Assembly (NCBI RefSeq): GCF_002797935.1
Contig: NZ_PGER01000001.1
Span: 2,232,001 to 2,296,000 of the forward strand
Reading direction: 5' to 3'
DNA from: Flavobacterium sp. 1
GTDB taxonomy: Bacteria > Bacteroidota > Bacteroidia > Flavobacteriales > Flavobacteriaceae
Length of the DNA: 64,000 bases
Part shown: in pieces, positions 32,905 through 50,115 of the stretch
How positions within the stretch are numbered: the first letter of the stretch is position 1
How the letters are laid out: every line of letters starts with the position of its first letter
Position numbers and translations under genes: made by a program
The notes under the pieces: model-generated
Told to the model about the DNA's origin: nothing
The model's input: only the letters and a program-made list of their open reading frames with translations
Database searches by the model: none

Positions 32905-32954
32905 CAAAACTAAAAGTTGAAAAAATCATATCCATCACTATAAATGATGATTTT
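32905..32954 (-). promoter_or_regulatory. adhesin operon promoter with palindromic operator
   Basis: Operator TCACTATAAATGATGA (32935-32950, plus-strand reading) with TTTT after it, 22 bases, then a minus-strand -7 box TAGTTTTG (32905-32912). The start codon is 28 bases on. The same arrangement occurs at 35624, 40230 and 50066. Confidence 0.75.
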
Positions 32955-33011
32955 GTATTTTGAAAAGAAGATTATTCAGAGTAATTTATATCTTCATTAT
33001 GCTGCAAGATA

Positions 33012-33899
33012 CTAAAAAGCTCTTATAGCACGTATTCTGTTTGAATTTGATTTTGATGTAGAAACAATAGATCCTCCGCCAAAATAAAAAGCTTCTGCAA
33101 TGCTAGCCAAAAGTTCGGTACTACTCCAATAAGTCGAAGTACCGTCTATTGGCAATAAGGTGTTGCCCGCTGATCGTAATGTTTTTTGAACATAAAAACG
33201 ATGTTGATACAACAAACTTAATTCATCAATGCTAGGCAAATACCAACCAGTTCCCAGAGTAGCAATATAGGTTGGTATTGTTCCTGCTGTAATTAAAGAA
33301 GTATTATAAGCACCATCTTCAGTACGGTCGGCACCAAACCAATAACCTCCAGCACCATTTAGCCAAACTCCTGTTGTCTCTGTGTTGGCAACTATTAACC
33401 CGTGTTCCAAACCATCGCTTCCTCGGTAAATTTCAAAAATAATGCCTCCATTAAAAGGTTCACCAAGATAATGGGCAAAACCAGACACTGTACTGCTCGA
33501 ATTTTTAGCATACAAAGCATAAGGAACACTCAACAATTGGCTCGATCCAGAAATAGTATATGAACTGCCTCCTGCTGGGTCAGTTTCTGTTTTTATAAAA
33601 TAAGATCCTGCTCCCCAGTTTATAGCAGCAAACGTACCTGACGTTACTGTTCCAGTACCTATTTCAACACTAACCAAACCATTTGCGTTTGTGGTTGCAG
33701 TTTGTGTTTCTACATACACTGGAGTTCCTGTGTCCGAGGTACGCAGAATGCTTATTCGCATTCCTATTGTTTGATTGCTAATTAGCGAATTATTTGCATT
33801 ACGAATTACGGCTTGGTAACTCATTTTATTTGGTGCTTGGGCAAAAGAAACTGTACTTATTAGTACTATTATTGCTATAATGATCAGTATTTTTTTCAT
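33012..33899 (-). CDS. secreted protein with DUF1566-like (Lcl) C-terminal domain
   Basis: 295 residues. Signal peptide ending TVSFAQ. The next 120 residues (APNKMSYQAVIRNANNSLISNQTIGMRISIL...) form the beta-rich N-terminal domain common in secreted Bacteroidota proteins. The end, GTGWYLPSIDELSLLYQHR to STYWSSTELLASIAEAFYFGGGSI and RIRAIRAF, matches the DUF1566/Lcl fold. Function unknown, perhaps surface or matrix. Its gene starts 11 bases after the stop of the T9SS type A protein gene, so the two form an operon. Confidence 0.75.
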   Translation of the reverse strand: MKKILIIIAIIVLISTVSFAQAPNKMSYQAVIRNANNSLISNQTIGMRISILRTSDTGTPVYVETQTATTNANGLVSVEIGTGTVTSGTFAAINWGAGSYFIKTETDPAGGSSYTISGSSQLLSVPYALYAKNSSSTVSGFAHYLGEPFNGGIIFEIYRGSDGLEHGLIVANTETTGVWLNGAGGYWFGADRTEDGAYNTSLITAGTIPTYIATLGTGWYLPSIDELSLLYQHRFYVQKTLRSAGNTLLPIDGTSTYWSSTELLASIAEAFYFGGGSIVSTSKSNSNRIRAIRAF

Positions 33900-33910
33900 A
33901 ATATTAGACG

Positions 33911-34390
33911 CTAATTTTTAATAATTTTAAATGTTTTCATTATTTTATTATTTTGATTTACGTTTAACAAATAACTTGCTCGGCTAAATCCTGACATTTC
34001 AACTTCAGTCTTTTCATTTTGAATTTTACCCTCTAAAAGTAATCTTCCGAATAAATCATATAATTGATACGTTAAACCTATAATTTCGGTATTTTCTATA
34101 ACTATGTTTAACACATCGGTAGTTGGATTAGGATATATTTTTCCCTCTAACTTTATATCAAACTCCTGGTTTCCCAATACAACTTGAATTTCAAGAGGCT
34201 GTTGTACTCCAGTAACCACAGATTCTTTAATACCGATAATGTTAGCATACACCATTTGCCCCACAGAATAACTTACACTCCCACCTGTACCCAAAATATT
34301 CTTACCCGAAGCCGTTGTATTGCTTTGTGCATTTGCGGTTGCAATTCCCAATCCAAGCTGCAGTAAGGGAATAAAAAATCTATTTTTCAT
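33911..34390 (-). CDS. small T9SS type A sorted protein
   Basis: 159 residues, almost only a signal peptide (about 1-21) plus a sorting domain. The N-terminal part GTGGSVSYSVGQMVYANIIGI resembles the short domain seen in proteins of this kind, and residues 85-159 are the type A C-terminal domain (YPNPTTDVLNIVIEN; YDLFGRLLLEGKI; NNKIMKTFKIIKN). Likely a small exported surface protein. A minus-strand -7 box TAGATTTG is at 34434-34441. Confidence 0.8.
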   Translation of the reverse strand: MKNRFFIPLLQLGLGIATANAQSNTTASGKNILGTGGSVSYSVGQMVYANIIGIKESVVTGVQQPLEIQVVLGNQEFDIKLEGKIYPNPTTDVLNIVIENTEIIGLTYQLYDLFGRLLLEGKIQNEKTEVEMSGFSRASYLLNVNQNNKIMKTFKIIKN

Positions 34391-34508
34391 AATGCTTAAA
34401 TATTTATATTACAATCTATCCGTTTTTTTTCAGCAAATCTAAAAGCATTGCATTTTTATAAAGTCAAATTTTCTTTTTTCAAAAAAATAGATATTGAGTT
34501 TTTTTTTG

Positions 34509-35183
34509 TTATAGTAGATTTTCAATAGCCGTTTTTATTCTCTCTTTCTCTTTAGATTCAAGAATTGATAAAGGCGAAAGGATTTCCAGCAGTAATGTTT
34601 GCTCGTTTAGTATAGTAGTATTGGTTGTTCCAATAGTAATTTGAATATTTTTAATGGCGTTTTGAACCAGTTTTTTACCCAATTCATCTGCAGTGAGGGT
34701 TTCAAAAATTATGGGAAGATATCCAATGGCGCGCAATACATCACCACGTGAGCTTTCGGGAAAAGAATCAACATCTAAAAGTAATTGGGTTTTCTCTCCG
34801 ATGATTTTTTCCAATTCGGTTTCACTATTTTTGATGGCTCGTTTCAGTTCCAAACTTCCAACGATAGCTGTGTTTTCGGGAGCGGCAAAAAACTTTAAAT
34901 AATGACTAGGTTCGACGAGTGTAAGAGCTACAACTTGGCTACTAGAGACCAAAGTAATTTCGGATTTTGAATAGGAATCGGGAATTCCCAAAATCATCAA
35001 TAAATGCTCGTTAGCCGTTTTTCTGGAATGAATAATACTGCCACGAAGCGTGTTTCCTGTATGCAACAATAATTCCAGTTTGGGTAAACTGGAATTATCT
35101 TCTGTATTTTGAGCCAAATCAGCAAGTTCTGTAAACCAACTGGAGAAGTCTTTGAACAGATTTTTTTTGTAAGAGGCAATCAT
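34509..35183 (-). CDS. unrecognised 224-residue protein, last gene of the accessory cluster
   Basis: No signal peptide and no family recognised. Mixed alpha/beta: an N-terminal helix (SYKKNLFKDFSSWFTELADLAQ), a beta part (LELLLHTGNTLRGSIIHSR) resembling an Sm-like/small barrel strand pair, a central TLVSSSQVVALTLVEP, and a long C-terminal helical region. Gene starts 2 bases after the 130-residue gene stop, so both are co-translated, and both sit behind the operator at 35654. Cytosolic partner of that protein is the best guess (inference). Confidence 0.6.
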   Translation of the reverse strand: MIASYKKNLFKDFSSWFTELADLAQNTEDNSSLPKLELLLHTGNTLRGSIIHSRKTANEHLLMILGIPDSYSKSEITLVSSSQVVALTLVEPSHYLKFFAAPENTAIVGSLELKRAIKNSETELEKIIGEKTQLLLDVDSFPESSRGDVLRAIGYLPIIFETLTADELGKKLVQNAIKNIQITIGTTNTTILNEQTLLLEILSPLSILESKEKERIKTAIENLL

Positions 35184-35185
35184 AA

Positions 35186-35578
35186 TTACAATAAAGCTTC
35201 TACATAGTTGGCAATTTGAGAATCGGTTTGAGAACTAAAAGATCCTTGTACTAATTGAACTGTCAATGCTAATGTTTTGTCTTTCAATTCCATTTTTACA
35301 TCATCATTATTATCTGAATTGGTTAATTGAATGGTTGACATTTTGTCCTGTAAAGCCTCTTTCCCCATATCATCAGAACATATTTTTTTTACGAATGACT
35401 CTAAATCATCAAAAACAATATCTAATCTTGTAAGTGGATATTGATCATAAGCGGTAAATGTATCCCAGTTGATATCAACTTTAATATCATAACCTGCTTT
35501 GTCTTTTAGTTTTGCTTCAAAAGCTGGAAGTTTTTCTGTTTTAATTGATTCTGCTGTACGTTTTTCTGCTAATCCCAT
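35186..35578 (-). CDS. 130-residue conserved protein (MGLAEKR family)
   Basis: Begins MGLAEKRTAESIKTEKLPAFEAKLKDKAGYDIKVDINW, then DDMGKEALQDKMSTIQL. I recall a widespread family of about 130-residue proteins, found in many phyla, which starts MGLAEKRAxxxF and has the same DxMGxEAL motif and an IDWDxL motif; its function is unknown. First gene of a two-gene unit under a palindromic-operator promoter. Cytosolic; no membrane segment. Confidence 0.65.
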   Translation of the reverse strand: MGLAEKRTAESIKTEKLPAFEAKLKDKAGYDIKVDINWDTFTAYDQYPLTRLDIVFDDLESFVKKICSDDMGKEALQDKMSTIQLTNSDNNDDVKMELKDKTLALTVQLVQGSFSSQTDSQIANYVEALL

Positions 35579-35623
35579 AGGTTAAATTTTTTATTATTAG
35601 TTAATTGTTAAACTTTTATAATG

Positions 35624-35673
35624 CAAATCTAATCTTGTGTTTTTTAGAAACACTCACTATTTATAGTGATTTT
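35624..35673 (-). promoter_or_regulatory. promoter with perfect palindromic operator
   Basis: TCACTATTTATAGTGA (35654-35669) is a perfect palindrome; TTTT follows. Minus-strand reading: operator, 22 bases, TAGATTTG (35624-35631), start codon 45 bases on. Identical 20-base core at 40260-40279. Confidence 0.8.
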
Positions 35674-35759
35674 GTACTGGAGGTTTTAGCCTAAACTTAA
35701 ATTATTTTTTTTTGCTAAAGCCCATTCCTATTGCTATTTTACTAAAAAACTTTCAAAAT

Positions 35760-36944
35760 TTAAGTAACAGGACTCATCAACTCTTCCTGAAGTTTTATTG
35801 GCAGTGAGTTGAAATGTTTTTCCGTCATATCCGATGGTATATCCTCCGATGGATTCTTATTTGTAGCGGGACGCACCACAAACACACCGCCACCCAAACG
35901 GTTGTCGCCACAATCTTGTACTGATTCCATAAATACTAGCGAATTCTTAGTGCGGATAGTTGCAGGCAATTGAAAAGTACGAAGCCCTAAATTATAGACA
36001 GGTCCAAATTTTTCGACATTTAAAATCTTGATTCTAAAAGTCTCGCCTTTTGTTTTAAAACGTACATAAGTCGTACTCCAAGCTTCTATAAGTACATTAT
36101 TTGGAATTCCATTCCTACTAGAAGAAATACCGATGTGTTTTTTGATTTGAAACTCCCGAAATAAACCTGTTCGACAATGCACAAAAGGATTCGCATCGCT
36201 AGTTTCGAGCGAAATCATTTCTGTCGAAGGCTCTGATTGTGGGAAGGTTTCTTTTTTTGAAATATCGGGCAGATAATAATCCTCCCGATTATTAGTCGTT
36301 CTATTTTCTTGAGAACAACAAATCATGCGACTGTCTCTTACTCCCGAAAGCAAAATTTCTAGTTTGCCTTGGCGTTTAAAAACCACACCCGCTTCATGAA
36401 TTTGGTCTCCCATAACCCGAAGATTTATAAACTCTATATATTCGGCTGAAGTGTATAATTGTATAAAAAGTTTTTCGAAATCTCTTGCGCCCAAATCCAA
36501 TTTTGAGTTGTGTATTTGATTGTAAGGAAGAGCATCTTTTTTTCCTGTTTCTAATAATGGGATGTATGAAGTTGGTCCATAGAAACAACCACTTCGGCTG
36601 GAAAAGGACAGGGGCGTTTCGAATGTAACAATATTGTTTCCGTTTTCATCCAGTAGCGAGTAGGCTTTCCCATAAGGCTTGGTTTCCTTTTCATATACTC
36701 TAAAAGGTCCCGTTCCATCCAGATCCGAATAAACTATATATTGTTTTACGGACGGAATATAAAAGTAGCGCGGATAATACACACGCCCACGAAGCACTGG
36801 TGCCAATTCATACTTTTTCGATTTACTTAATATCGTATTACGAAACATAAATTTATATTTTGAGGAATTCACGGTTTTCGGTAACAAAAAAAAGACAAAA
36901 AGAAAAATAGGAATTAGTATGTAAAGGTTGATTGTTTCAATCAT
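35760..36944 (-). CDS. membrane-anchored beta-rich protein, LRR-less paralogue
   Basis: 394 residues. An N-terminal anchor (LYILIPIFLFVFFLLPKT) precedes a long beta-rich domain: KYKFMFRNTILSKSKKYEL, VLRGRVYYPRYFYIPSVKQYIVYSDLDGTGPFRVYEKE and RLGGGVFVVRP. It is closely related over its whole length to residues 1-400 of the protein at 42819-44522, but stops just where the leucine-rich repeats of that protein begin (QEELMSPVT against QEALLHPDAVTSLKL). No known family. Envelope location with the beta part on one side of the membrane. Confidence 0.7.
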   Translation of the reverse strand: MIETINLYILIPIFLFVFFLLPKTVNSSKYKFMFRNTILSKSKKYELAPVLRGRVYYPRYFYIPSVKQYIVYSDLDGTGPFRVYEKETKPYGKAYSLLDENGNNIVTFETPLSFSSRSGCFYGPTSYIPLLETGKKDALPYNQIHNSKLDLGARDFEKLFIQLYTSAEYIEFINLRVMGDQIHEAGVVFKRQGKLEILLSGVRDSRMICCSQENRTTNNREDYYLPDISKKETFPQSEPSTEMISLETSDANPFVHCRTGLFREFQIKKHIGISSSRNGIPNNVLIEAWSTTYVRFKTKGETFRIKILNVEKFGPVYNLGLRTFQLPATIRTKNSLVFMESVQDCGDNRLGGGVFVVRPATNKNPSEDIPSDMTEKHFNSLPIKLQEELMSPVT

Positions 36945-37039
36945 CGGTATGAATAGGGATGTCGGGTTGCTTTTCTTTCAAAATATCAAGAGCAAGCTGA
37001 ATGAGTTCTTTTAAGACCAAATCTGAATTTATTGAAATA

Positions 37040-37612
37040 TTATTCCTCCAGCTGCTGAATCTCTTCAAAAAAAATATCTTCATATTTTGCTTTTAGATAC
37101 CTGTATATAGGCTCAGTAACCAGAATATAGCCTGGGTCTTCCTTTATCAAAAACATGTTCAGGTGTTCGGGTACTTTATTGGCATAAATTCCTACTTCGT
37201 AGTCATTAAGTGTTTTGGTACAATCAATTCGCCCCAGAATATTTAAAAAAAGGTAATTGTCTATGATTACCTCATTTTTCAGATCTCGAATAATGACAGG
37301 ATGCATCTCAATATTGTCTATTCCAATTTCAAGAAGATCATTATAAAATTGTTTGGTTCCAATGAGTCCCGGGGAGGTGAAAAAAGTGGGGAATATACCT
37401 GTTTCTTCTTCATCGTCTAAATCACAAATTAGAGGACCTTTGAAAGGTTCTCCATTATCACAGTCGTTTGTATAGTCAATAAGAAGATTTCCTGTATGTG
37501 TAATCAACATGCTGTGACTACGCATGAACAATGTGGCAGGCTCCGTGCCATCGTAACGGTACAATGGAATTTTGTCCGACATTGCATAATATTTCTTGGT
37601 TTTAGTCTTCAT
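37040..37612 (-). CDS. Imm11-like (DUF1629) immunity candidate
   Basis: 190 residues, cytosolic. The second half fits the MXAN_0049/Imm11 plan: HPVIIRDLKNEVIIDNYLFLNILGRIDCTKTLNDYEV, LNMFLIKEDPGYILVTEPIYRYLKAKYEDIFFEEI, with the alternating N-x-x-G-x-x-D-C and VTE-x-hydrophobic pattern. Imm11 proteins neutralise polymorphic toxins of type VI or related systems. Assignment is from sequence pattern only and has no toxin beside it that I recognise; it sits three bases after a membrane protein gene in the same unit. Confidence 0.5.
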   Translation of the reverse strand: MKTKTKKYYAMSDKIPLYRYDGTEPATLFMRSHSMLITHTGNLLIDYTNDCDNGEPFKGPLICDLDDEEETGIFPTFFTSPGLIGTKQFYNDLLEIGIDNIEMHPVIIRDLKNEVIIDNYLFLNILGRIDCTKTLNDYEVGIYANKVPEHLNMFLIKEDPGYILVTEPIYRYLKAKYEDIFFEEIQQLEE

Positions 37613-37614
37613 AT

Positions 37615-38463: not shown

Positions 38464-38478
38464 TTGTTTAAAATTTAT

Positions 38479-38883
38479 TTAAAATCTTTGTATTACCATT
38501 TTGACAAGTTTTATTACTACTGAAATAAATATGAGAAGTGGTAAAAAATAACCAGGCAACAAAAGTATTATTCCACTATCTCCATTATAAGGTTTGCCGT
38601 AACGGCCACAAATGTAAATTAGTACACACCAGAAAGTAAAGAAACTGATTGATGATAAAAACCAATGCAGTATAAAATACCTGTAATTGTCTGTAAAAAG
38701 AGAAAGCAGGAAGTTAATAATCAAACAACCAACAAACATATAGGCTCCGTAGCTAATTACAATAGTTTTTGAAAAAAGAGAGATCAACATTATCACTGCC
38801 AGCAAAATACATGTAATCAACAATTGATAATAAACATAATAATCGTTGGTAAAAAAAGCTGTTTTAAAATTATTCATAGTCAT
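38479..38883 (-). CDS. 134-residue four-helix membrane protein
   Basis: Almost entirely hydrophobic: helices at about 18-36, 41-61, 69-90 and 104-128, with KPYNGDSGIILLLPGY in the last loop. No charged motif suggests transport. Its company, all membrane proteins on the same strand, suggests a subunit of a complex (inference). Confidence 0.55.
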   Translation of the reverse strand: MTMNNFKTAFFTNDYYVYYQLLITCILLAVIMLISLFSKTIVISYGAYMFVGCLIINFLLSLFTDNYRYFILHWFLSSISFFTFWCVLIYICGRYGKPYNGDSGIILLLPGYFLPLLIFISVVIKLVKMVIQRF

Positions 38884-39069: not shown

Positions 39070-40158
39070 TCAAGTTTGTTTAGTTCGACTCAATCTTGCT
39101 TCAATTCTTCCTGATGTTTTTATTTCATTGAAAATTTCTGGCAAGTCTTCAGTCTTTCCTGAAAAAATGAGCCTATGTCTAAACCTTAAAAGTTTTATTT
39201 CCTTATCTTCCTTACTTATAGGGACTTCTTTGTTATTGGCAGAGTCTATCAGTAGTACCCCTTCTTTATTAAAAAGCTTTATTCCGCCATTTAAATAAAT
39301 ATGAAGAAGTAAAGGCTTTGTTTCTTTGCCTCTAAGCATTCTCAATTTACTTTCAGGATACTTTTCCTGTTCTATTTTAAGTTTCTTAAAAGGGAATGGA
39401 ATTTCGGCGGAGTAACATTTATCTTCCACAAACGAAAACCAAGTGATTAAAAGCATATCAGTATCAAAAGGAATTTGTACTAATTCTCTAAAAACTGCTT
39501 TATTTGTATAATAAATTTTGTCCATAACCTCAATTGTTTGGGGAGAATAATAGTCGAGATAATTATTTATTTTAAAATTAGAAGATTTTCTATTTAAAGT
39601 ATTTACAAACTGAATGTTATCTACGCAACAAATCAACTCCAGATCATGTTTAACATCTAAAATTAAAGTTACATACGCTACTGCTTGTCGCCATTTGATA
39701 TAATAATAGTTACTTATTTTTATAGCAAAATATAAAACAGGTAATCCGAACAAAGTAAACAACCATAAATAGAAATAAAGAGGATTAAATTGGTTTGTTT
39801 TTTGATATACAACCAATAAGTAAAAACCAAAATCTGTAATAAATAAGACAATAAATACCGTTAAAAAAGTACTGAAATAATAAATAATTTCGAAGAAAAT
39901 TGATAAAACCCCTAAGCTATTATTTCCGTTATTCCCATTACTTCCATTTGGAGTAGCATTTTTTAAACCATTATAAAAAAAATTAGCAACCAAAGCAAGA
40001 ATGACATTAAAAATAATTGTAGCCTTAACGTCTAACAAATATAGTATTGGATAAGAAATACATGATGCTAACATAATGGGGAAAAACAGGTAACATATAA
40101 ATTCTTTTGAATCAAAATATACTGGTTCTATTTTTTTATAAAATTTATATTTTTTCAT
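39070..40158 (-). CDS. membrane protein, TPR-less paralogue of 44540-46477
   Basis: 362 residues. Four membrane helices (about 20-42, 44-65, 88-110, 120-145), the ATPNGSNGNNGNN loop between 2 and 3, then a soluble domain with NIQFVNTLNRKSSNFKINNYLDYY and VEDKCYSAEIPFPFKKLKIEQEKYPESKLRMLRG. Parallel text is in residues 1-350 of the 645-residue protein (IQFVNTSKRTMSDIKLE; VEDKYYDIELPFPFEKMILEREKYP). It ends at IKTSGRIEARL, where the longer protein goes on to a central domain and TPR. TssN of Bacteroidota type VI systems is a possible relative, unverified. Confidence 0.65.
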   Translation of the reverse strand: MKKYKFYKKIEPVYFDSKEFICYLFFPIMLASCISYPILYLLDVKATIIFNVILALVANFFYNGLKNATPNGSNGNNGNNSLGVLSIFFEIIYYFSTFLTVFIVLFITDFGFYLLVVYQKTNQFNPLYFYLWLFTLFGLPVLYFAIKISNYYYIKWRQAVAYVTLILDVKHDLELICCVDNIQFVNTLNRKSSNFKINNYLDYYSPQTIEVMDKIYYTNKAVFRELVQIPFDTDMLLITWFSFVEDKCYSAEIPFPFKKLKIEQEKYPESKLRMLRGKETKPLLLHIYLNGGIKLFNKEGVLLIDSANNKEVPISKEDKEIKLLRFRHRLIFSGKTEDLPEIFNEIKTSGRIEARLSRTKQT

Positions 40159-40229: not shown

Positions 40230-40279
40230 CAAATTTATAGGTATTGATTTTCTCTAACATCACTATTTATAGTGATTTT
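40230..40279 (-). promoter_or_regulatory. promoter with perfect palindromic operator
   Basis: TCACTATTTATAGTGA (40260-40275) plus TTTT, minus-strand spacing of 22 bases, then TAAATTTG (40230-40237). The start codon of the 362-residue membrane protein is 71 bases further. The same 20-base core occurs at 35654. Confidence 0.8.
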
Positions 40280-40299: not shown

Positions 40300-41565
40300 T
40301 GTCAAGTTCCGTTTTGGTGCTTGGCGAAGAAACGGATTTCGAAGCACTAAACTGTCTGCCAGCACTGAACTTGATTCGAAACACCAATCTTCATTTAAGC
40401 ACAGAACCCGCTTTTTTGCCAAACGTCTGTTAGTTTTCTATTGTCTATTGAGTCCATTTTTTAATTCCTTCAGATAGTTTAAAATAGCTTGTCGTTTTAC
40501 TTGGTCATTACTGTTTAATTCCCTTTTGAAAAGGTCGTAATTAATGTTTACGAATAGTAATTCATTCTCTGCGTGGAAATAAGTCAATAGTTTCAGCCTA
40601 TTGAGTTTAACGTCACTAAACTCGGGTTCGTAAATTTTCTTATTTGTGTCGAATTTATATTTGATTTCTGTTGAGTCGTTTATAAATTCAATTTGATTTC
40701 CTAATGTGTCTGTAAACTGATTTCTAAACACAAATTTAAGTTTCAATGGTTTCGTGTCCAAAATTGTTGATTCAATCCAATAAGTCCTTATGCTCCAAGA
40801 ATTTTGCAGATTTATGTTTTCAATTTCTGTCAATGTCGGCAATAGTTCCTCTTTGTCATAGCGGTAAAAATTAAATTGATTCCACCAAATACCTGTTCCA
40901 CTTTCATAATTTACCTTATAATATAGTACTGTTTCATTGATTTCATTCTTGAAGTGTTTAAGTTCAAGCCCGTAACGGTGAAAAATTTTATGCTTTGCAA
41001 TAACCTTGTCAGATTTTAAAAAGTAAACATCATTATTCCAAGCTAGTCCACCGTCATAGCCAATTGAGATTGCAAATTCGTTAAAGTCTTTTTTGTTGTT
41101 GTCAAACGAGTAAAAGCCAATTGTTAATTTTTTGTTCTCCGAATTTGAAGCTAAGTTACTGCCTATTTCAAGTTGAGGGAAAATTCGTCTTGCTACATCC
41201 AAATCTATTTCACCGCTTTTAGTTGCTGTCTTTAACACCTTAAAATCAGTCCGACTTAATTTGTTGTTTAGCTTTATTTGATTGTTTAAAGTAGAGTCAA
41301 CTTGGAATGTAAGTTTTTCAGTCCAACCATTTGAATTTAAATTCCCAATACTGTCGAGTAATGTAATAAGTTCCTTTTCAGAATATTGAACGGTCGGAAT
41401 AGAATTCGTTGAGTCTTTGTCGGCTGAAACATTTCGTTTATTGACAGTTTGATTTTTACAAGCTGTTAACCCAAGTAATGCGAAAAAAAATATTGTCCAT
41501 TTCATCGTTGGTGTCGTTTTATAAGCTTACCGCTAACTTTCGCATTGTATTACAATGAATACTAA
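40300..41565 (-). mobile_element. single-gene cassette-like insert (possible attC-type flanks)
   Basis: The lipoprotein gene sits alone between two units of the cluster. On its 3' side (40300-40437, coding strand) a long imperfect hairpin can form: CAAGTTC with GAACTTG, TTTGGC with GCCAA, and GTGCTTCGAA with TTCG-CC-AAGCAC. Next to it stands CTAACAGACGTTTGGC; on its 5' side, GTTAGCGGTAAGC and ACACCAACG precede the start. Recurrent flanks of this type around single genes are known to me from Bacteroidota genomes, and they resemble integron attC sites. No integrase is in the window. Confidence 0.45.
40438..41505 (-). CDS. lipoprotein of unknown family, probable cassette gene
   Basis: 355 residues. 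Signal peptide with lipobox LLGLTAC (Cys16), so a lipid-anchored envelope protein. The rest is beta-rich and Asn/Lys/Asp-rich, with no recognised motif (WTEKLTFQVDSTLNNQIKLNN; GGLAWNNDVYFLKSDKV; WWNQFNFYRYDKEEL). It is flanked by cassette-like sequence and lies between two units that share a common operator, so it is probably a later insertion (inference). Confidence 0.6.
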   Translation of the reverse strand: MKWTIFFFALLGLTACKNQTVNKRNVSADKDSTNSIPTVQYSEKELITLLDSIGNLNSNGWTEKLTFQVDSTLNNQIKLNNKLSRTDFKVLKTATKSGEIDLDVARRIFPQLEIGSNLASNSENKKLTIGFYSFDNNKKDFNEFAISIGYDGGLAWNNDVYFLKSDKVIAKHKIFHRYGLELKHFKNEINETVLYYKVNYESGTGIWWNQFNFYRYDKEELLPTLTEIENINLQNSWSIRTYWIESTILDTKPLKLKFVFRNQFTDTLGNQIEFINDSTEIKYKFDTNKKIYEPEFSDVKLNRLKLLTYFHAENELLFVNINYDLFKRELNSNDQVKRQAILNYLKELKNGLNRQ

Positions 41566-41573
41566 CACATTAA

Positions 41574-42764
41574 TTAAAAACCATTTTCTTTTTTGTAAGC
41601 TGAAAGTTCTTTGTAGAAAACCGCTTCATTGCATTGTTCGAAATCGCGAGCCATTATCAAAAAATAGTCTGTTTTGATAAATGACTTTGAAAAATCAAAA
41701 TACATTAATCGTTTGCATACTTTCATATAAGTCTCCATTACTTGTCTTGCCCAAACCTCGCAAGCCTCATCGTCTTGCCACGGAATTTTTTCGCCATGTG
41801 CATTTGTAACCATATAATTAGACTGAATTTCTATTGGATAAAAATCAATAGCAATTGAATTGGGTTCCTCGTTTTCAGAAAAATACCGCATGTCTGGCGC
41901 ATTATATAACTCATACAATTCCTTGTCCTCAAAATTGCCGTCTATTTCTGAAGCTACACCAAAAGCAATGGTTGGCGGGAATGGCCCTTGCATGCTGTAT
42001 TCAAACAATAGGCAATATACAGGCTCTTCGATTTTTACTTTTTCAAGAATCTGATCGGCTATGTTTTCTACTAAAAAATCTTCTAACTCGGCCAGGATTT
42101 TTTCGACATCTTTAGTTTCCAAATCTTTTTCGAACAGTATACGAATTCTTCCATCAGAGGCTGTTTCTGTAATACGTGCTAAATTGCCTTCGGCATCATA
42201 ATCCAATTCGCCAATGCAATGATGATCGTAATTGGGCCACTCCAATTTGTAACTTTTAATGAATTGTCCCTCGCAGGTATAGGTTTTTAGCGAAATACCA
42301 TACTCAGTGCATTCTACAAACTGATGAGGCATGCCGTCTTTTAAATACAGATAACTCAGGTTGATTGCCTTTAAATCTTCATTGTTTTGGTAAACACAAA
42401 AACTCTTTTGGTACGCTTCTGTATATTCATAGATTGTGGTATAGAAAATATCGTCTCCGTAATGTTGTTTTTTAAAATACGCTTTTCTGTTTTCGAGATT
42501 GATTTTGTATTCATACAAATCATCTGTTTCAGGATCAAAATCTTCCTCATTTTCTATGAATAACTTTGCGTCTGGAGATAAAACTTCGTTGGCAATCTGG
42601 GAAAAATAGGGTTGTATTTCAAACAGATTGTATATCGACTGAACTGTAATCCTATTTTTATCTAATAAAACAACGCTCTCTTTTTCGCTGAATGTGCTGG
42701 CTATACAATTAAATTCTTCTTGTATTTTGGTATATAATATCTCGTTCATGCTATTTTTATTCAA
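41574..42764 (-). CDS. unrecognised 396-residue soluble protein
   Basis: No signal peptide. Acidic overall, with a mixed central part: YGISLKTYTCEGQFIKSYKLEWP and ELDYDAEGNLARITE (a YD/RHS-like fragment) followed by VYCLLFEYSMQGPFPPTIAFGVASEIDG, a pattern I associate with immunity-type proteins such as DUF4303 relatives, but the match is too weak for a call. The C-terminal region has DFYPIEIQSNYMVTN and a helical end. Transcribed with the LRR and membrane-TPR genes, 54 bases after the LRR gene. Confidence 0.5.
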   Translation of the reverse strand: MNKNSMNEILYTKIQEEFNCIASTFSEKESVVLLDKNRITVQSIYNLFEIQPYFSQIANEVLSPDAKLFIENEEDFDPETDDLYEYKINLENRKAYFKKQHYGDDIFYTTIYEYTEAYQKSFCVYQNNEDLKAINLSYLYLKDGMPHQFVECTEYGISLKTYTCEGQFIKSYKLEWPNYDHHCIGELDYDAEGNLARITETASDGRIRILFEKDLETKDVEKILAELEDFLVENIADQILEKVKIEEPVYCLLFEYSMQGPFPPTIAFGVASEIDGNFEDKELYELYNAPDMRYFSENEEPNSIAIDFYPIEIQSNYMVTNAHGEKIPWQDDEACEVWARQVMETYMKVCKRLMYFDFSKSFIKTDYFLIMARDFEQCNEAVFYKELSAYKKENGF

Positions 42765-42818
42765 TAGTAAAACAGGCTTTTAAAACTGTTAGGTCTAACT
42801 TAAAATAATATCATGGAA

Positions 42819-44522
42819 TTACTTCATATTTTTCATATAATCAAACAAATCTTTGTACTCAGGAGGCATTTTATTTTCCAGGACTCTTCCGTCATAGATA
42901 TAAAGTTTCTTCATTTTAATCATGGAACTTGGTAAAGTAGTAATGTTTGTAAGTACCATATCCAAATTTTCCAGTTCTTCTAATCTATCCATTTCTTCTG
43001 GCAAAGTTGAAATTTCATTGGCTCCAATATTCAAACGTTTTAATTTTTTTAGTTCTAAAAGAACGGCTGGAAATTCAGTTAATTTATTCGAAAAAAGATC
43101 TAAGTCACTTAACTCTGTCAGTTTTGCCAGTTGATGAGATATTTTCTGGATGTTGCAGTTTTTCAGTGACAATTGCTCCAGCTTAGGAAATTTTGAAATC
43201 GCATCCGGAATTTCTGTTATTCCGATACTTATTTCCAAATGGGTAAGATTTTTTAAACGCTCTATTTCAGGAATCCATTCGCTGCCATTTTTATCAATCA
43301 ATTTGAGCGATGTTACCGCATCGGGGTGCAATAAGGCTTCCTGCAAAGTTATAGGCAGTGTGTTGAAATGTTCTTCTGTCATATCAGATGGTATATCCGC
43401 CGATGGATTCGGATTCATAGTAGGACGCACCACAAATACACCACCGCCTAAACGATTATCGCCCCGATCTTGCGCAGATTCCATAAATACCAATGAATTC
43501 TTGGTGCGAATAGTTGCAGGCAATTGAAAGGTGCGAAGCCCTAAATTATAAGCTGGTATCAAACTTGTTTTTTCTACATCTAAAATTTTGATCCTGAAAG
43601 TTTCACCTTTGGTTTTAAAACGGACATACGTAGTACCCAAAGATTCTCCCAAAACATAAATAGGAATAATACCCAACTTTGCTACACCTTGCAAGCCCGA
43701 AGAATACTTGGTTTTATATTTTTTGATGGCAAACTCGGGATTTAAACCCGTTCGCCAATGTAGAAAAGGGTTGGTATCGGTGGTTTCGAGCGAAATCATT
43801 TCTATCGAAGGTTCTGACTGTGGGAAGGTCTCTGTTTTTGGAATATCGGGCAGATAATAATCCTCACTACTATTCGTCGTTTTATTCTCTTGAAAACGAC
43901 GAATCATACGGCTGTCCTGTAATCCTGAAAGCAAAATGGAAACCTTGCCTTGGCGTTTGAAAATTATACCTGCTTGATGAAGATCGTCACCCGAAGACCT
44001 AAGGTCAATGAATTCTATATATTCGGATGAGGTGTATAATTGTATAAAAAGTTTTTCGAAATCTCTTTTTCCTAAATTCAAGTTTGAGTTGTGTATTTCA
44101 TCGTAAGGGAGAGCTTCTTTTTTTCCTGTTTCTAAAAAAGGAATGTACGATGTAGACCCGTAGAAACAGCCACTTCGACAAGAAAAGTTCAAGGGTGTTT
44201 TGAATCTAACAACATTGTTTCCTGTTTCATCCAGTAAAGAGTATGCTTTTCCTGTGGGCTTTGTGTTTTTTTCATATACTCTAAAAGGTCCCGTTTCGTC
44301 CAAATTTGAATAAACCATATATTTTTTTAAGGACGGGATATAAAAGTAACGCGGATAATACACACGCCCACGAAGCACAGAAGCCAATTCATACTTTTGG
44401 GATTGGCTTAAAATCGTATTGCGAAATAGGTATTTGTATTTTGAGGTGTTTTGGGCTTTCGCCACTAATATTCCGAGTAAAAATACTGGAATGAGTATAT
44501 AAAGTGCTGTCATTTTTATCAT
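42819..44522 (-). CDS. membrane-anchored leucine-rich repeat protein
   Basis: 567 residues. N-terminal anchor (LYILIPVFLLGILVAKA), a beta-rich region of about 370 residues (shared with the 394-residue paralogue) that ends RLGGGVFVVRPTMNPNPSADIPSDMTEEHF, and then leucine-rich repeats from about residue 400: SLKLIDKNGSEWIPEIERLKNLTHLEIS, KLEQLSLKNCNIQKI, ELSDLDLFSNKLTEFP, KLKRLNIGANEISTLPEEM, ELENLDMVLTNITTLPSSM. LRRs bind proteins, so it may recognise a partner. Starts 17 bases after the membrane-TPR gene stop. Confidence 0.75.
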   Translation of the reverse strand: MIKMTALYILIPVFLLGILVAKAQNTSKYKYLFRNTILSQSQKYELASVLRGRVYYPRYFYIPSLKKYMVYSNLDETGPFRVYEKNTKPTGKAYSLLDETGNNVVRFKTPLNFSCRSGCFYGSTSYIPFLETGKKEALPYDEIHNSNLNLGKRDFEKLFIQLYTSSEYIEFIDLRSSGDDLHQAGIIFKRQGKVSILLSGLQDSRMIRRFQENKTTNSSEDYYLPDIPKTETFPQSEPSIEMISLETTDTNPFLHWRTGLNPEFAIKKYKTKYSSGLQGVAKLGIIPIYVLGESLGTTYVRFKTKGETFRIKILDVEKTSLIPAYNLGLRTFQLPATIRTKNSLVFMESAQDRGDNRLGGGVFVVRPTMNPNPSADIPSDMTEEHFNTLPITLQEALLHPDAVTSLKLIDKNGSEWIPEIERLKNLTHLEISIGITEIPDAISKFPKLEQLSLKNCNIQKISHQLAKLTELSDLDLFSNKLTEFPAVLLELKKLKRLNIGANEISTLPEEMDRLEELENLDMVLTNITTLPSSMIKMKKLYIYDGRVLENKMPPEYKDLFDYMKNMK

Positions 44523-44539
44523 TTTTAATTTCTTTCGGA

Positions 44540-46477
44540 TTACTGTTCTACACTCATTTTTATAAAATCATGAGTTCCTTTACTTGCTAAAATAATATTC
44601 AGCGTTTCGGATTTATGCCCTAATTTTTTGGATTTTTCTGCCAATTCCAATGCTTTTTTGGGATCTTTTAATTTACAATACACTTCGGCTAGATTACATA
44701 CATAAGTACCCTCTTTTGGATAGGTTTCTATTGCTTTTTCAAAATAGGATTTGGATTCCTCGTAGCGCAGTTCCTCGTCCAATATGCATCCATACATATT
44801 ATAAATATGTGCCAATGCACCTGGTTCGTGCTTTGTTTTTGCAATAAAATAATCCTTTTTGGCATAGCAGGCATCAAACCCTTCTTTGTACCACAATAAT
44901 CTGGACGCTAAAAAATAAGCAAAGCCATATCTCGGGTCTAATGTTAATACTGCATCGCATTTTTCTTGTGCCAAAGCGTATTTTTTGTTTCCAACCAATG
45001 CCCAAGCTTCTTTCAAAAGGGTCTGTTTTTGCTCGTCTTCGCTTTCGTCGAGCAAATGATCCTGCATACTTTGTTTGCGGGCTTTATCAATTTGAATCTC
45101 CCAATCGGTAAACGCCATCGATTTTCCATTCGCGCTAAGCGTAAATTTCAAGTCGGTTTTTTTTGATGAGTTCTCAAAAACAAGGTCAAACAAAACAGGA
45201 CTTTCTCCATTCCCATCCGTTAGTTTTTGAATACATTGATAGAGATTTTGATAATTAATTCGTAAAGTCAACCAACGGTATAAATAATCGCCTCGATAAA
45301 CGATTTCTAGTTTTTTTGGTAAAAATCGCAACATGGTTAACTCTAAAGTTTCCTTCTCACTTTCGTATTCCTGAAAAGAAACATCAAACACATCCAAATA
45401 ATTATCGCCTTCAAGTCCCGAAATACTCATGTTCCAAGGAACTAATTTATTTTGTATTTGAAAGCGTTCTTCAATTCCCCCAGACCCTTTAATCGTTTCT
45501 ATCAAACCCGAAAAGGTTTTTGGGTTGTTATAATATTCGTGTGAATACCGATGGCGTTTTATTTTTTCATTTCGTACTTCTTCCGTAATTGAAGTTGGAA
45601 TACTGTTTATATGATTAATTAAAACAGTGTCGCTATTAAAAAGTTTTATCCCTCCATTGGCATGAATGTGAAGATTCAGGCGTTTGGTTTTCTTTCCTCT
45701 CAAAATTCCAGAAACATTTGTGGGGTATTTTTCTCGTTCCAGAATCATTTTCTCGAAAGGAAATGGCAATTCGATATCATAATATTTATCCTCCACAATC
45801 GAATACCAAGACATAAAAAATTTATTTGTACCAAAAGGCAAATGTATGGTATCGCTAAAAGCACTTTTTTCTAAATAATAATTTCTAGTACTGTTGTCTT
45901 CCATTTTTTTTAACTCTGCTTCCGAATAATAACAAGGAGCTTTTTCTAGTTTGATGTCTGACATGGTACGTTTTGAAGTGTTTACAAACTGTATGGCATC
46001 AATATGAGTAAGCAATTGGTTATCATAATCTACTTTCAGTGATACTTTTAGATAATTTACCACCATTTTTCTTTCCTGAAAATAAAAACGACCATATTTA
46101 AAAATATAATAAACAGTGGGAGTCCCAAGCAAAATCAACAACCATAATTGAAAATAAAGTCTATTGAAGATTCCCGTTTTTTGATAAACTACCAGTGTAT
46201 AAACTCCGTAATCGATAAACAGTAATAAGCCAAATATAAGGATGACTCCTGTCAAAAATTCAAAGGTTATTCGTTGACGATTTCTTGCATAATAATACCA
46301 ATACAAATAAGAAAAAAAAGAGATAAAAAGATTAAAAAACAAGGCTATCCCCATACCTAGAAAATAGTGCAATACATAAGTGATAACGGAGGCTATAAAA
46401 ATTAATGCTATTGGAAAAGCACTATCTCTACTAATATAGACTTCTTTTGTTTTTTGGTAAGAATTGTAATTTTTCAT
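44540..46477 (-). CDS. membrane protein with C-terminal TPR
   Basis: 645 residues. Four N-terminal membrane helices (about 20-42, 45-62, 70-92, 105-128), the middle domain NLHIHANGGIKLFNSDTVLINH shared with the 362-residue paralogue, a second soluble domain (about 350-490) and TPR at about 500-635 (AWALVGNKKYALAQEKCDAVLTLDPRYGFAYFLASRLLW; YGCILDEELRYEESKSYFEKAIETYPKEGTYVCNLAEVY). No catalytic motif seen. A scaffold for a membrane complex is an inference. Confidence 0.7.
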   Translation of the reverse strand: MKNYNSYQKTKEVYISRDSAFPIALIFIASVITYVLHYFLGMGIALFFNLFISFFSYLYWYYYARNRQRITFEFLTGVILIFGLLLFIDYGVYTLVVYQKTGIFNRLYFQLWLLILLGTPTVYYIFKYGRFYFQERKMVVNYLKVSLKVDYDNQLLTHIDAIQFVNTSKRTMSDIKLEKAPCYYSEAELKKMEDNSTRNYYLEKSAFSDTIHLPFGTNKFFMSWYSIVEDKYYDIELPFPFEKMILEREKYPTNVSGILRGKKTKRLNLHIHANGGIKLFNSDTVLINHINSIPTSITEEVRNEKIKRHRYSHEYYNNPKTFSGLIETIKGSGGIEERFQIQNKLVPWNMSISGLEGDNYLDVFDVSFQEYESEKETLELTMLRFLPKKLEIVYRGDYLYRWLTLRINYQNLYQCIQKLTDGNGESPVLFDLVFENSSKKTDLKFTLSANGKSMAFTDWEIQIDKARKQSMQDHLLDESEDEQKQTLLKEAWALVGNKKYALAQEKCDAVLTLDPRYGFAYFLASRLLWYKEGFDACYAKKDYFIAKTKHEPGALAHIYNMYGCILDEELRYEESKSYFEKAIETYPKEGTYVCNLAEVYCKLKDPKKALELAEKSKKLGHKSETLNIILASKGTHDFIKMSVEQ

Positions 46478-46512
46478 AATGAAAATAATATTTTTTTTAC
46501 TGGAGTATGTAA

Positions 46513-47670
46513 TTACTCTTCATCAGTTTCATATACCGTAGCATCAATAGCCAGTTTTTGTTGTGCTCTTTTAACAAAAACATTGTCTGACTCAGCACCT
46601 AATGCACGCTGAGTTGGAGTTAAATTTCCGTTGAGCCAAATCATTCTATCCTCATTATTGGCAATTTGATATTTTGTACTCAATCGATGAATTGCTTCTT
46701 GGTACACTTCCCAAACTACCGGATTCTTTTCCCCTTTTTGTTTTTCGATTAAAAAAGGCAAAGCCTCTTGCCAACCTAAATCAGCCAATGCTAAGATGGC
46801 AAAAGTTGGCCAGCCGGCATTTTCATCATTTTGTAAATAAGCAAGCGCTTCGGTATGATTTTTTTCCAGATACCATTTGGCATACAATATCTGATGCACA
46901 TAAATATTTTCTTTGTAATGCTTTAGTTTTTTTGCAATTGTATCATTCAAAAACGTAATCTTATCAATTGTAGCAGAATATAAAGTAAGCAGTAGTGCGA
47001 TAAAACCCGAAGCTTGATTCATTCCATAACTTCTTTTTTCGTTACTACTAAACGCATAAATTTCAAAAACAAGATTGGAAAATTGTTCCCTGTCCTCTTC
47101 CTTCAAAGAAGAGATAGCCTGAGCCAATTCCAATAATGTACTGCCATCTGGGTCTGCACTTGAGCTATTGTAGTGGTTGTCATTTTCTTTCGCATAATTT
47201 TTGACATAATCAAAAGAGGTTTCAAAAAACAAAATAACGGCTTGTTTAAACTTTGGGTTATAATAGGCTTTCGCTAATGCAAAAAGGGATTGCTCGTTTA
47301 CATACAATTGCTGAAAATATAAAAAATCTTCACCTTTCAAACAATCAGTGGCGTATCCTAAAACTTTATTAAATGCTTCCTCATCGTCCAGCGCAATCAT
47401 CACGTCATAGCGTCTGTCTATCATATAATCGGCAATAGCAATAATCTCATTTCGAAGATTTTCGTTTTTAGAAATGTGATAATCCTCTAAAGCCTGATTA
47501 AGGTAAATTTCTTTTATTTGATTTTTAAACACCTGAAAAGAATAAAAATCATCGGTATAGTCACTGCGATTATAGGAAGTTATTTTATCTATGATTGTCT
47601 TGTATTCATTTGGATGTTTTGAGGCAAAATCGGTTATTTCCTGCTCTATTTTAATTTGAAAATTTTTCAT
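46513..47670 (-). CDS. unrecognised 385-residue helical protein (HEAT-like)
   Basis: Almost all helix, with no signal peptide or membrane segment. Helix pairs with Leu/Ala spacing (SLFALAKAYYNPKFKQAVILFFETSFDYVKNY; GFIALLLTLYSATIDKITFLN; WPTFAILALADLGWQEALPFLIEKQKG) resemble HEAT repeats. Ends VKRAQQKLAIDATVYETDEE. Starts two bases after the 369-residue gene stop and lies 36 bases before the membrane-TPR gene. Adaptor or cytosolic partner (inference). Confidence 0.55.
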   Translation of the reverse strand: MKNFQIKIEQEITDFASKHPNEYKTIIDKITSYNRSDYTDDFYSFQVFKNQIKEIYLNQALEDYHISKNENLRNEIIAIADYMIDRRYDVMIALDDEEAFNKVLGYATDCLKGEDFLYFQQLYVNEQSLFALAKAYYNPKFKQAVILFFETSFDYVKNYAKENDNHYNSSSADPDGSTLLELAQAISSLKEEDREQFSNLVFEIYAFSSNEKRSYGMNQASGFIALLLTLYSATIDKITFLNDTIAKKLKHYKENIYVHQILYAKWYLEKNHTEALAYLQNDENAGWPTFAILALADLGWQEALPFLIEKQKGEKNPVVWEVYQEAIHRLSTKYQIANNEDRMIWLNGNLTPTQRALGAESDNVFVKRAQQKLAIDATVYETDEE

Positions 47671-47671
47671 C

Positions 47672-48781
47672 TTATTGCTTTGTATTAAAAATCAATTCTT
47701 TTATAGATTCCAAGGTAAACTCATCACTATTGGCAACTACTTTAGATTCCAAATATTGAGCATATTTATAGTTGTCCGATTGCTCTTCTTTTTCTATAAA
47801 AAAACCATCTACAGGATTCCCATTTTCTCCCAAATGGAGAGAGACCATTTTAGCATAATCGTTCTCCATTTTTATAAAGTAATAATCATTATCTCCATTT
47901 GCCAAAAAACGGGGAGTGAGCTGAATATTTATCGCTGAAAAAATCAGAGAAATATAACTACGATTGGAAATAAAATTTTCAACGTATAATTGTTCATTTA
48001 TTTCAAAATTATAGTGTTGCGTTAATTTAGTGCTGTTGTCATTGAAAAGAAAGTAACATATAAATCCTTTGCCTTTGTAAGGCTTAATTTTTTGAGACAA
48101 ACTGGCATTGCTGAATTGGTATTTAATAACTAATTTATCGGCTGTCTCATAAAGAACAGTTCCATTTTCATTGTCTTTAAATTCAACCGTTATGGTTCCA
48201 AATCTAAGTTCACGGTTATTGACTTCTTCATTATGAAAGTTTTGTTCATGAATTTTATAACCATTGGGTAACAGCACTATTTTAACTGCTTGAAGCACAC
48301 TTCCTATAATCATCCATAAATAGGTATATGTAATTTTGCCCTCTTCATAATATTCAGAAGCACAAAAATTCATTCCATTTACACTAATACTCTCCTTATG
48401 AATTAATCCTTGTAGAGGCATCTTGTTTTTATAAGTCGTTTTGCTCAATTGAACTTCGGCGGGGTTTTCAGAAGCAATTAAATCTAATAATGAATACGAA
48501 TAATGAGTCTTTAATTCTCCGTTTTCATAATAATCTATAAGCGGACTTCTGAATTCATGATAGTAAACAAAATACCCATCAAAAGGATTTCCATCTTTGT
48601 ATTTGCCAATTAAAGGTTTTTTGCCTTCTACAGTAATGAGGTAGTTTGTTGCTTCAACAAGTTTTCCTGCATTGTAAATGTGTTTGTATTCCATGTTTTC
48701 GTCAGAGGTAAGTGTCAATTCTCCCTCTCGCTGTCCAGCTTTATTTAGTTTTTCCTGATCATATTGGTATTGAAATTCCAT
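47672..48781 (-). CDS. unrecognised 369-residue protein with MORN-like motifs
   Basis: Beta-rich, no signal peptide. GKYKDGNPFDGYFVYYHEFRSPLIDYYENGELKTHYSY, YKNKMPLQGLIHKES and GENGNPVDGFFIEK resemble the YENGxxxG pattern of MORN/YwqK-type repeat proteins, degenerate here. The function is not known. The gene is between the beta-propeller-like gene (66 bases upstream) and the HEAT-like gene (2 bases downstream). Confidence 0.55.
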   Translation of the reverse strand: MEFQYQYDQEKLNKAGQREGELTLTSDENMEYKHIYNAGKLVEATNYLITVEGKKPLIGKYKDGNPFDGYFVYYHEFRSPLIDYYENGELKTHYSYSLLDLIASENPAEVQLSKTTYKNKMPLQGLIHKESISVNGMNFCASEYYEEGKITYTYLWMIIGSVLQAVKIVLLPNGYKIHEQNFHNEEVNNRELRFGTITVEFKDNENGTVLYETADKLVIKYQFSNASLSQKIKPYKGKGFICYFLFNDNSTKLTQHYNFEINEQLYVENFISNRSYISLIFSAINIQLTPRFLANGDNDYYFIKMENDYAKMVSLHLGENGNPVDGFFIEKEEQSDNYKYAQYLESKVVANSDEFTLESIKELIFNTKQ

Positions 48782-48846
48782 AATTTTGTTTTAGATTTTA
48801 CTAATTGTAACCACAAAAATTAGAATTAGTATTATTTTGATTTCTA

Positions 48847-50052
48847 TTATTTTAACCCTAAATCTATTTTAACAGACCAAACCATTCCGTTATCGCGATT
48901 GTGGCCATGATTTACATTTCCGAAAATTATAATTTCATTCAAATCTTCCAGTTTAAAACTTTGAGGATAGACTCCTTTTATATCTAAATAATATTCTTGA
49001 AATGATGGAATATCGCTTATAGAAAGTTGCAGGTCATCTATATTGAAATTCAAATATTGGATGTCTGCAGAAAAAATACCACTCGAAAAATGCACGTGGA
49101 GCAAGAATAACCCCGTGCCTTCGCCTATGCGTAATGTTTCTCCAATCAATAAACAATTGCTGTCTGTTCCTGAAACTATGGCGTGAATTTTATAGACTTC
49201 TGGAAAATCATATAAAATTTGAGTAAACGAAAGTATAGTTCCGCTAGCAGTAACTCTTCCAAACAAAGGGTCTTCGACAGCTCTGTCTGCATAAGTGTAA
49301 TCGATACCAGAAAACCAAACACCATCAGTAACCGTTATGCCGTTTTGTGTTTTATAATAAGGAGCTATTTTATTCAATGGCATCAAACCTTCCAGCCCAA
49401 AATGACCCAGCCCTTGATTCCAAATACGTTCTCCTTTAACCGAATACTTAGAAATGCCATGACTTTCTAAAACATAAAAATTCCCAAAATTTGAATCTAA
49501 AATCGATGCCGAAAAATAGCTTTGTTTTAGTGCTGGGTTTTCTGCATCTAAAAAGTCTTGACCCTCTTTTGTGATTTTAGTTTTCCATCTTTCTGGATAA
49601 AAATCATCGTGTCCTCCTGCAGGCACACATTGGTACCAATTGCCATTTATCAAAATAGCATCACCATTGGCACTTTCAATTTTGGTGATTTCGGTGCTGT
49701 AGCCTTTGTCAAATGTGCGGGATGTTAACAATTTATCTTCTTTGAATAAGGCTAATTTCGCCCCCCAATTCAAACTCGAATAACCACTGCCTAATAAATA
49801 GTTACCGTTCTCTAAACCATAAATACATTTCCATAATGTGCCTTTTTCAAAAATGTCTTTATAAATGGCAACTATTTTAACTCCCTCAAAATAAACAACA
49901 ACTTGCTCTATTGACTGATAATTTTCGGTTATCCAAATGTTTAATAAAGCAATATAAATGGCATCACAAGATGTAACTGATACGATTTGAACGCCATGCG
50001 GATTTTCGAATTCTGTTTTTAAATCAGTTGTATGTAATAGTGTCGATAACAT
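48847..50052 (-). CDS. unrecognised 401-residue protein, possible beta-propeller
   Basis: Strand-rich throughout with repeated blade-like parts: YGLENGNYLLGSGYSSLNWGAKLALFKEDKLLTSRTFDKG, VLESHGISKYSVKGERIWNQGLG, GETLRIGEGTGLFLLHVHFSSG, IFGNVNHGHNRDNGMVWSVKID. No signal peptide. First gene of the largest unit of the cluster, whose promoter lies only 13 bases before the ATG (a leader of a few bases, or a start further in). Confidence 0.55.
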   Translation of the reverse strand: MLSTLLHTTDLKTEFENPHGVQIVSVTSCDAIYIALLNIWITENYQSIEQVVVYFEGVKIVAIYKDIFEKGTLWKCIYGLENGNYLLGSGYSSLNWGAKLALFKEDKLLTSRTFDKGYSTEITKIESANGDAILINGNWYQCVPAGGHDDFYPERWKTKITKEGQDFLDAENPALKQSYFSASILDSNFGNFYVLESHGISKYSVKGERIWNQGLGHFGLEGLMPLNKIAPYYKTQNGITVTDGVWFSGIDYTYADRAVEDPLFGRVTASGTILSFTQILYDFPEVYKIHAIVSGTDSNCLLIGETLRIGEGTGLFLLHVHFSSGIFSADIQYLNFNIDDLQLSISDIPSFQEYYLDIKGVYPQSFKLEDLNEIIIFGNVNHGHNRDNGMVWSVKIDLGLK

Positions 50053-50065
50053 TCGTACTTTTTTT

Positions 50066-50115
50066 CAAAATTCGGGCTATTCCTTTTAATGGGTCTCACT
50101 ATTTATGATGATTTT
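50066..50115 (-). promoter_or_regulatory. promoter with variant palindromic operator
   Basis: TCACTATTTATGATGA (50096-50111) and TTTT, 22 bases on the minus strand, then GAATTTTG (50066-50073), a weaker -7 box that keeps TTTG. The distal half-site differs in the same way as at 32935. Expected to drive the seven-gene unit from 50052 leftwards. Confidence 0.65.

Follow-up and report, generated by a model that had tools for sequence, protein, structure and literature searches.

To our knowledge, there are few Bacteroidota in which the operator of a response regulator has been described. Here we describe, in a stretch of 64,000 nucleotides from Flavobacterium sp. 1 (contig NZ_PGER01000001.1, positions 2,232,001 to 2,296,000; referred to as the window, whose own numbering is used throughout), a palindromic operator shared by four promoters, and a kinase-regulator gene pair as the candidate system acting on it. 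The response regulator PorX, which is tied to the type IX secretion system (T9SS), is not of the NarL type. The NarX/NarL system of Escherichia coli is similar to the one described here in having a NarL-type two-component regulator and inverted 7-base elements 2 bp apart; NarL activates ogt from such a 7-2-7 operator at -44.5, and promoter derivatives from -67.5 and -77.5 (PMC7419079). The Flavobacterium system differs in its heptamer, in acting at a Bacteroidota sigma-A promoter with the -7 box TANNTTTG, in the operator position of -42.5, and possibly about -68.5 in other lineages, and in its targets, which are surface proteins and proteins of unknown function. The remFG-sprCDBF locus of F. 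psychrophilum likewise represents a regulated T9SS adhesin with SprF in Flavobacterium, with the difference that it is served by two promoters, of sigma-54 (SM4) and SM5 type, and that no response-regulator dyad is described in the excerpts of the source (PMC9723704). PorXY-SigP of Porphyromonas also ties two-component control to the T9SS, but PorX is reported to work via an extracytoplasmic function (ECF) sigma factor, or to bind PorL (PMC4800418, PMC5005315). A literature search judged by titles and the openings of abstracts returned no description of the operator presented here.

Four promoters share a 7-2-7 operator at a fixed spacing

The first-pass annotation of the window had described four palindromes, each followed by TTTT on the plus strand, each exactly 22 bases from a -7 box on the minus strand and with an invariant half-site nearest to this box. 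We confirmed this observation: all four palindromes read exactly as described (Table 1), TTTT is present in 4/4, on the minus strand exactly 22 bases lie between the dyad and the start of the -7 box, and the half-site ATAGTGA is identical in 4/4. The minus-strand consensus is AAAA-TCAYYATWWATAGTGA-N22-TANNTTTG, the fourth site having GA for TA, and the distance from the -7 box to the ATG amounts to 28, 45, 71 and 13 nt for units 1 to 4. The intact 16-mer is composed of two perfect 7-base arms with 2 unpaired bases between them, i.e. a 7-2-7 inverted repeat TCACTAT-TT-ATAGTGA. The 22-base spacers are mutually unrelated with 4-9 of 22 bases identical, showing that the four promoters are not copies created by promoter duplication.

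A LuxR-type response regulator had been proposed to be encoded at 24900 beside the first unit, and Pfam identifies both a receiver (PF00072, 2.2e-28) and a GerE domain (PF00196, 4.1e-16), the domain combination of NarL/FixJ regulators. Its DNA-binding domain is nearly invariant among the 10 orthologues aligned. The adjoining gene encodes a HisKA_3-type histidine kinase (PF07730 and PF02518), a relative of which precedes the regulator in 46/46 Flavobacterium loci.

Operator position supports a probable role in activation

The 46 Flavobacterium loci were picked by regulator homology and not by motif; together with 34 loci from elsewhere (36-53% regulator identity, compared to 63-86% in Flavobacterium) they form the 80 loci kept of 366 relatives. 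Allowing up to 2 mismatches, 41/46 of the Flavobacterium loci have the standard motif. They contain 57 distinct dyads that deviate at no more than 1 position; TANNTTTG is found at a spacing of 22 in 49 and of 21 in 2, nowhere else between 0 and 50, and in 4 cases at 51-56 (background 0.00078 per position). In loci chosen by motif search, 62/85 dyads have the box at 22, and one each has it at 13 and at 56. For 91 sites chosen to represent the 113 that have up to 2 mismatches, the consensus is ATCAYTATTTATARTGAT preceded by AAAA, retaining the 7-2-7 inverted repeat characteristic of NarL/FixJ operators, and their spacer shows no strongly conserved element and no conserved -33 element. With the -7 box placed at -12 to -5, following PMC9723704 and with the start position being predicted, the dyad spans -50 to -35 and is centred at -42.5. 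The earlier suggestion of a dyad near -42, where LuxR-type activators bind, thus agrees with the centre, the NarL-type layout and the fixed spacing of 22.

We consider it very probable that kinase and regulator constitute a two-component system controlling the four units via the 7-2-7 dyad as a class II activator. According to this model, a dimer of the phosphorylated regulator would bind to the dyad ATCACTA-TTTA-TAGTGAT in the place of a -33 element, resulting in class II activation of sigma-A promoters lacking this element, and would jointly switch on the T9SS adhesin/PorP unit, the 130/224-residue unit, the 362-residue unit and the seven-gene unit. Regulator binding, phosphorylation, the direction of control and the signal are inferred. 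Alternatively, the regulator might bind the dyad and act as a repressor, its dimer blocking RNA polymerase at the -33 region. The overlap of the dyad with the expected place of a -33 element would fit repression, which we nevertheless judge to be unlikely: a conserved -33 element is absent from the spacer, the rigid spacing (49/57 at 22) is as expected of a contact with RNA polymerase, and related dyads at a spacing of 48, although few, are located too far upstream for simple occlusion.

Regulator and motif co-occur across the genus

In a panel of 249 Flavobacterium genomes, an orthologue of the regulator is encoded in 22, including its own genome; all score E 1e-81 or better and, outside the own genome, are 63-69% identical, followed by a next best candidate at 44%. 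The motif with at most 3 mismatches yields 120 matches in 46/249 genomes, compared to 10 for the reversed control, and 93 of the 120 fall in the 22 regulator-encoding genomes. With at most 1 mismatch it is present in 21/22 regulator genomes versus 2/227 others (Fisher p 3e-27) and, restricted to genomes of at least 4.6 Mb (n=53), in 19/20 versus 1/33 (p 3e-12), p values which overstate independence as the genomes are related. The 22nd regulator genome (G057) has a 3-mismatch site just past its regulator gene. In genome G135, 1.6 Mb separate the regulator gene from the sites, an arrangement in trans. Genome G108 (L294, G108:C4:417000-430000) has no regulator above 39% and no adhesin at this place; a relic adhesin promoter with the same neighbours as in G053 is still recognisable there, in which both the otherwise invariant half-site and the -7 box are altered.

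Besides the relatedness of the genomes, several observations weigh against the proposed model. The remaining 27/120 matches are found in 24 of the 227 genomes without an orthologue, orthologues having been sought among a limited number of candidates, the 12 best per genome. The complete genome G091 carries the motif at two promoters, with 0 and 2 mismatches, and its best regulator among all 110 candidates scored reaches 41%, which speaks against a strict dependence of motif and regulator and could be explained by recent loss of the regulator or by a related regulator; G148, which is 76% complete, also has the motif and no orthologue. A standard site is missing in 5/46 Flavobacterium regulator loci, of which L206 shows the motif with a spacing of 21, L171 one that looks decayed by eye, and L163, L189 and L196 no motif within the locus stretch examined. 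For 15/51 standard sites in the 46 loci, no open reading frame (ORF) of at least 80 residues starts within 130 nt, many of these being the hairpin loci described below. Finally, four weak matches (2-3 mismatches; L019, L022, L036, L038) lie in front of a second LuxR regulator from this superfamily, so that related regulators may share the operator. In these four loci a TCACTA-type dyad stands at N22 before that regulator's own gene (the L022 protein having 41% identity to the window's regulator), which suggests autoregulation.

The retained motif in G091 and the similar dyad before the gene of the other LuxR regulator would also be expected if a regulator encoded elsewhere bound the dyad and the regulator at 24900 were a mere linked neighbour. 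We regard this as slightly less probable still than repression: motif and regulator co-occur in 21/22 genomes, among them G135, where the targets lie far from the regulator gene, and dyads are present at kinase and PorP promoters beside regulators of 51-52% identity. The interpretation of the first-pass annotation, a LuxR-type regulator encoded at 24900 acting on the four promoters, is supported by these comparisons.

The specific element is the combined motif

Searching the 5,351,669-base genome for AAAATCAYYATWWATAGTGA-N22-TANNTTTG with at most 3 mismatches returned 4 matches, which are the four promoters of the window and none other; the reversed control of the AAAA-dyad-N22-box pattern gave 0 matches over the same genome at the same threshold. 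The 16-mer alone, with at most 3 mismatches, has 11 matches in the window versus 1.15 expected, a number reached in 0/100 shuffles; these fall at 9 places: the four sites, of which two match on both strands, plus five further places deviating at 2-3 positions. Neither shuffles nor reversed controls reproduce the observation. A dyad with 2 mismatches, TCGCTTTTTATAGTGA, is located at 19589-19604 within an ORF (19408-19761) and is absent from the full-motif matches. Genome-wide, the bare 16-mer with at most 3 mismatches is not enriched (46+55, i.e. 101, versus 45+57, i.e. 102, in the reversed control), showing that it is specific only together with AAAA, N22 and the -7 box. Site, spacing, layout, conservation, co-occurrence and common neighbourhood were all computed. 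Chance in an AT-rich background, for which this lack of enrichment might be taken to speak, or the copying of one duplicated promoter, has a negligible probability given 4 versus 0 full-motif matches, the motif in 41/46 regulator loci and spacers with only 4-9/22 bases in common.

Genes behind the operator

The motif is present at orthologous promoters; its absence there had been named by the first-pass annotation as a refutation. All 13 genus genomes (own included) encoding a homologue of the 130-residue protein with at least 49% identity have the motif (at most 2 mismatches, N22) before this gene, any homologue being present in 15/249. Four further genomes found via this homology (G583, G450, G529, G328) have the motif in 4/4 and a regulator of 64-66% identity in 4/4; G529 and G328 are also among the genomes of the locus set picked by regulator homology. 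Proteins similar to the 362-residue protein stand behind the same motif in other genomes, and elsewhere in the genus the motif precedes first genes for FG-GAP and leucine-rich repeat (LRR) T9SS proteins, tetratricopeptide repeat (TPR) proteins, LRR/WGR proteins, an L,D-transpeptidase and a NAMPT-like enzyme. At the promoter of a GNAT gene (L264-L293), compared in 30 of the 148 genomes with a homologue, operator and -7 box are present in 7/27 judged genomes, all 7 with the regulator, and a different sequence in the other 20/27, 5 of these with the regulator.

In the window, the adhesin of unit 1 carries a type B sorting domain (TIGR04131, 46.8 bits, cut-off 35) and is encoded next to its PorP/SprF partner. 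For the 224-residue protein of unit 2, the Sm/Hfq-like match of the N-terminal domain is of middling score and low model confidence, and for the 130-residue protein a fair model (predicted local distance difference test, pLDDT, 82) gave no informative match in the fold comparison. The 362-residue protein is a candidate membrane protein as judged from its hydrophobic stretches, and the seven genes of unit 4 are probably transcribed as one.

Table 1. Kinase-regulator pair, operator promoters and gene units in window coordinates (aa, amino acids)
Feature	Position	Strand	Basis
Sensor histidine kinase, 715 aa (TPR, HisKA_3, HATPase_c)	22749..24896	+	Pfam
LuxR/NarL-type response regulator (receiver + GerE), candidate dyad binder	24900..25541	+	Pfam; co-occurrence
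PorP/SprF outer-membrane partner, gene 2 of unit 1	25548..26468	-	Pfam PF11751, 167.4 bits
Giant T9SS type B adhesin, 2134 aa, gene 1 of unit 1	26472..32876	-	NCBIfam TIGR04131; translation
-7 box TAGTTTTG of unit 1	32905..32912	-	sequence
Operator TCATCATTTATAGTGA of unit 1	32935..32950	-	motif searches
224-aa protein, predicted Sm/Hfq-like N-terminal domain, unit 2	34509..35183	-	structure/fold prediction
130-aa protein, unit 2	35186..35578	-	no informative fold match
-7 box TAGATTTG of unit 2	35624..35631	-	sequence
Operator TCACTATAAATAGTGA of unit 2	35654..35669	-	motif searches
362-aa protein, hydrophobic stretches, gene 1 of unit 3	39070..40158	-	similar proteins behind same motif elsewhere
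-7 box TAAATTTG of unit 3	40230..40237	-	sequence
Operator TCACTATAAATAGTGA of unit 3	40260..40275	-	motif searches
Seven-gene unit 4 (401, 369, 385, TPR 645, LRR 567, 396, 355 aa)	40438..50052	-	ORFs, Pfam
-7 box GAATTTTG of unit 4	50066..50073	-	sequence
Operator TCATCATAAATAGTGA of unit 4	50096..50111	-	motif searches

Related dyads in other Bacteroidota

In the 34 loci of regulators with 36-53% identity, the exact motif form occurs in 0 at up to 2 mismatches and in 1 at 3 mismatches. Dyads close to the standard recur in loci of 51-52% regulators, before the histidine kinase-response regulator (HK-RR) pair, PorP or the 130-residue gene. A related dyad precedes HK-RR in Reichenbachiella (L195) and PorP-adhesin-224-HK-RR in Pseudochryseolinea (L197); in L204 (titled Flammeovirgaceae), which also has a related dyad, relatives of the 362/645-residue, 130-residue and 224-residue proteins, HK, RR, PorP and adhesin are collinear, and Niastella (L200) has the first five genes of this order. 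We take these genera to belong to other orders than Flavobacterium. TCACT-N6-AGTGA is the commonest of 30 arm-shuffled words in the 34 loci, but with only 5 occurrences versus 0-3. In G222, G575 and G024, the genes of distant homologues of the 130-residue protein (30-33%) have a 40-43% regulator no more than 2 kb away and are preceded by a perfect TCACTGAATTCAGTGA.

Eight dyads in distant loci were tested, and five of them, in L197, L202, L204, G222 and G575, are followed after exactly 48 bases by a -7-like box with no more than 1 mismatch; the 48-base cases include the loci L197, L202, L204, L081 and L308. Of the remaining dyads, the L195 pair has the box at 19 and 45, and the other L204 site has none. 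As the eight dyads were partly picked with a -7 box in view, we offer a second fixed operator position at about -68.5 in other lineages only as a lead.

A hairpin in place of the adhesin

In 13/46 loci (L156, 158, 164, 166, 172, 173, 176, 177, 179, 182, 186, 187, 188), an operator promoter located about 160-230 bases past the regulator stop points at the regulator, with no ORF of at least 60 residues within 300 bases; several of these loci end less than 1 kb from the site, so that an adhesin may lie elsewhere. L206 and L124 (from G057) have a similar layout. Where other loci have adhesin and PorP, 14 sequences (12 of the 13 loci, L124 and L206) have in common a hairpin with the loop TTGGGG. 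In its 10-pair outer stem 140/140 cells are paired, with 17 one-sided changes to G-U and two double changes in L206. The whole structure shows 3 double changes, reached in 7/500 shuffles; the pairing gain is modest (27/500 shuffles), additional pair types do not exceed the shuffled level (449/500), and related rows inflate these counts. On the regulator strand, the G-U pairs turn into mismatches (-16.6 versus -6.2 kcal/mol, 13 sequences). In L187, a different hairpin with the same TTGGGG was found by folding. L165 and L187 show other apparent adhesin remnants past the regulator stop behind an operator promoter, with a G-rich stretch that is possibly a hairpin loop (L165 by eye). In the hairpin loci L118, L124 and L112, rRNA genes adjoin the regulator locus (5S in 3/3, 23S in 2/3).

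A model of the hairpin, R1, finds seven genus genomes with the hairpin layout at E 1e-11 or better, partly by construction. Apart from these, its stronger matches (E 2e-5) fall within the coding part of the adhesin gene in G006 and in G063, the G006 match being in an adhesin repeat reading NQTLAIGDAIPDY; up to E 1 there are matches in 28/249 genomes, the rest being weak (E 0.0025 or more). R1 also matches adhesin coding sequence in L170, L178 and L192 (of 25 sources), and the hairpin therefore looks like a retained fragment of the adhesin gene. We tentatively propose that some species have lost adhesin and PorP and may have kept an adhesin fragment as a regulator-driven, short structured non-coding RNA replacing the protein, a reading to which we give somewhat less than even chances. 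The main rival explanation, a decaying pseudogene, is made less likely by the intact stem. GacA/UvrY is a NarL-type regulator driving the non-coding RNAs CsrB/RsmZ with GGA in hairpin loops. The hairpin loci, and only these, are similar to this system in combining a NarL-type regulator with GGA in a hairpin loop. They differ from it in that CsrA was found in 0/10 genomes searched, 7 of them with the hairpin, whereas the same search found CsrA in 3/14 control genomes.

Discussion

Our data support the presence of a putative NarL/FixJ-type regulon in Flavobacterium, for which the comparative evidence is unusually clean. A regulator can be specified along with an operator sequence, the fixed position of this operator and the target genes, making the system testable in soil and water strains of Flavobacterium, and the operator promoters provide a ready-made reporter. 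The comparison also directs attention to lineages where operator and -7 box may be separated by one of two set spacings, 22 or 48 bases. For the biology of these bacteria, the model would link one two-component system to a giant T9SS adhesin and to several protein families of unknown function.

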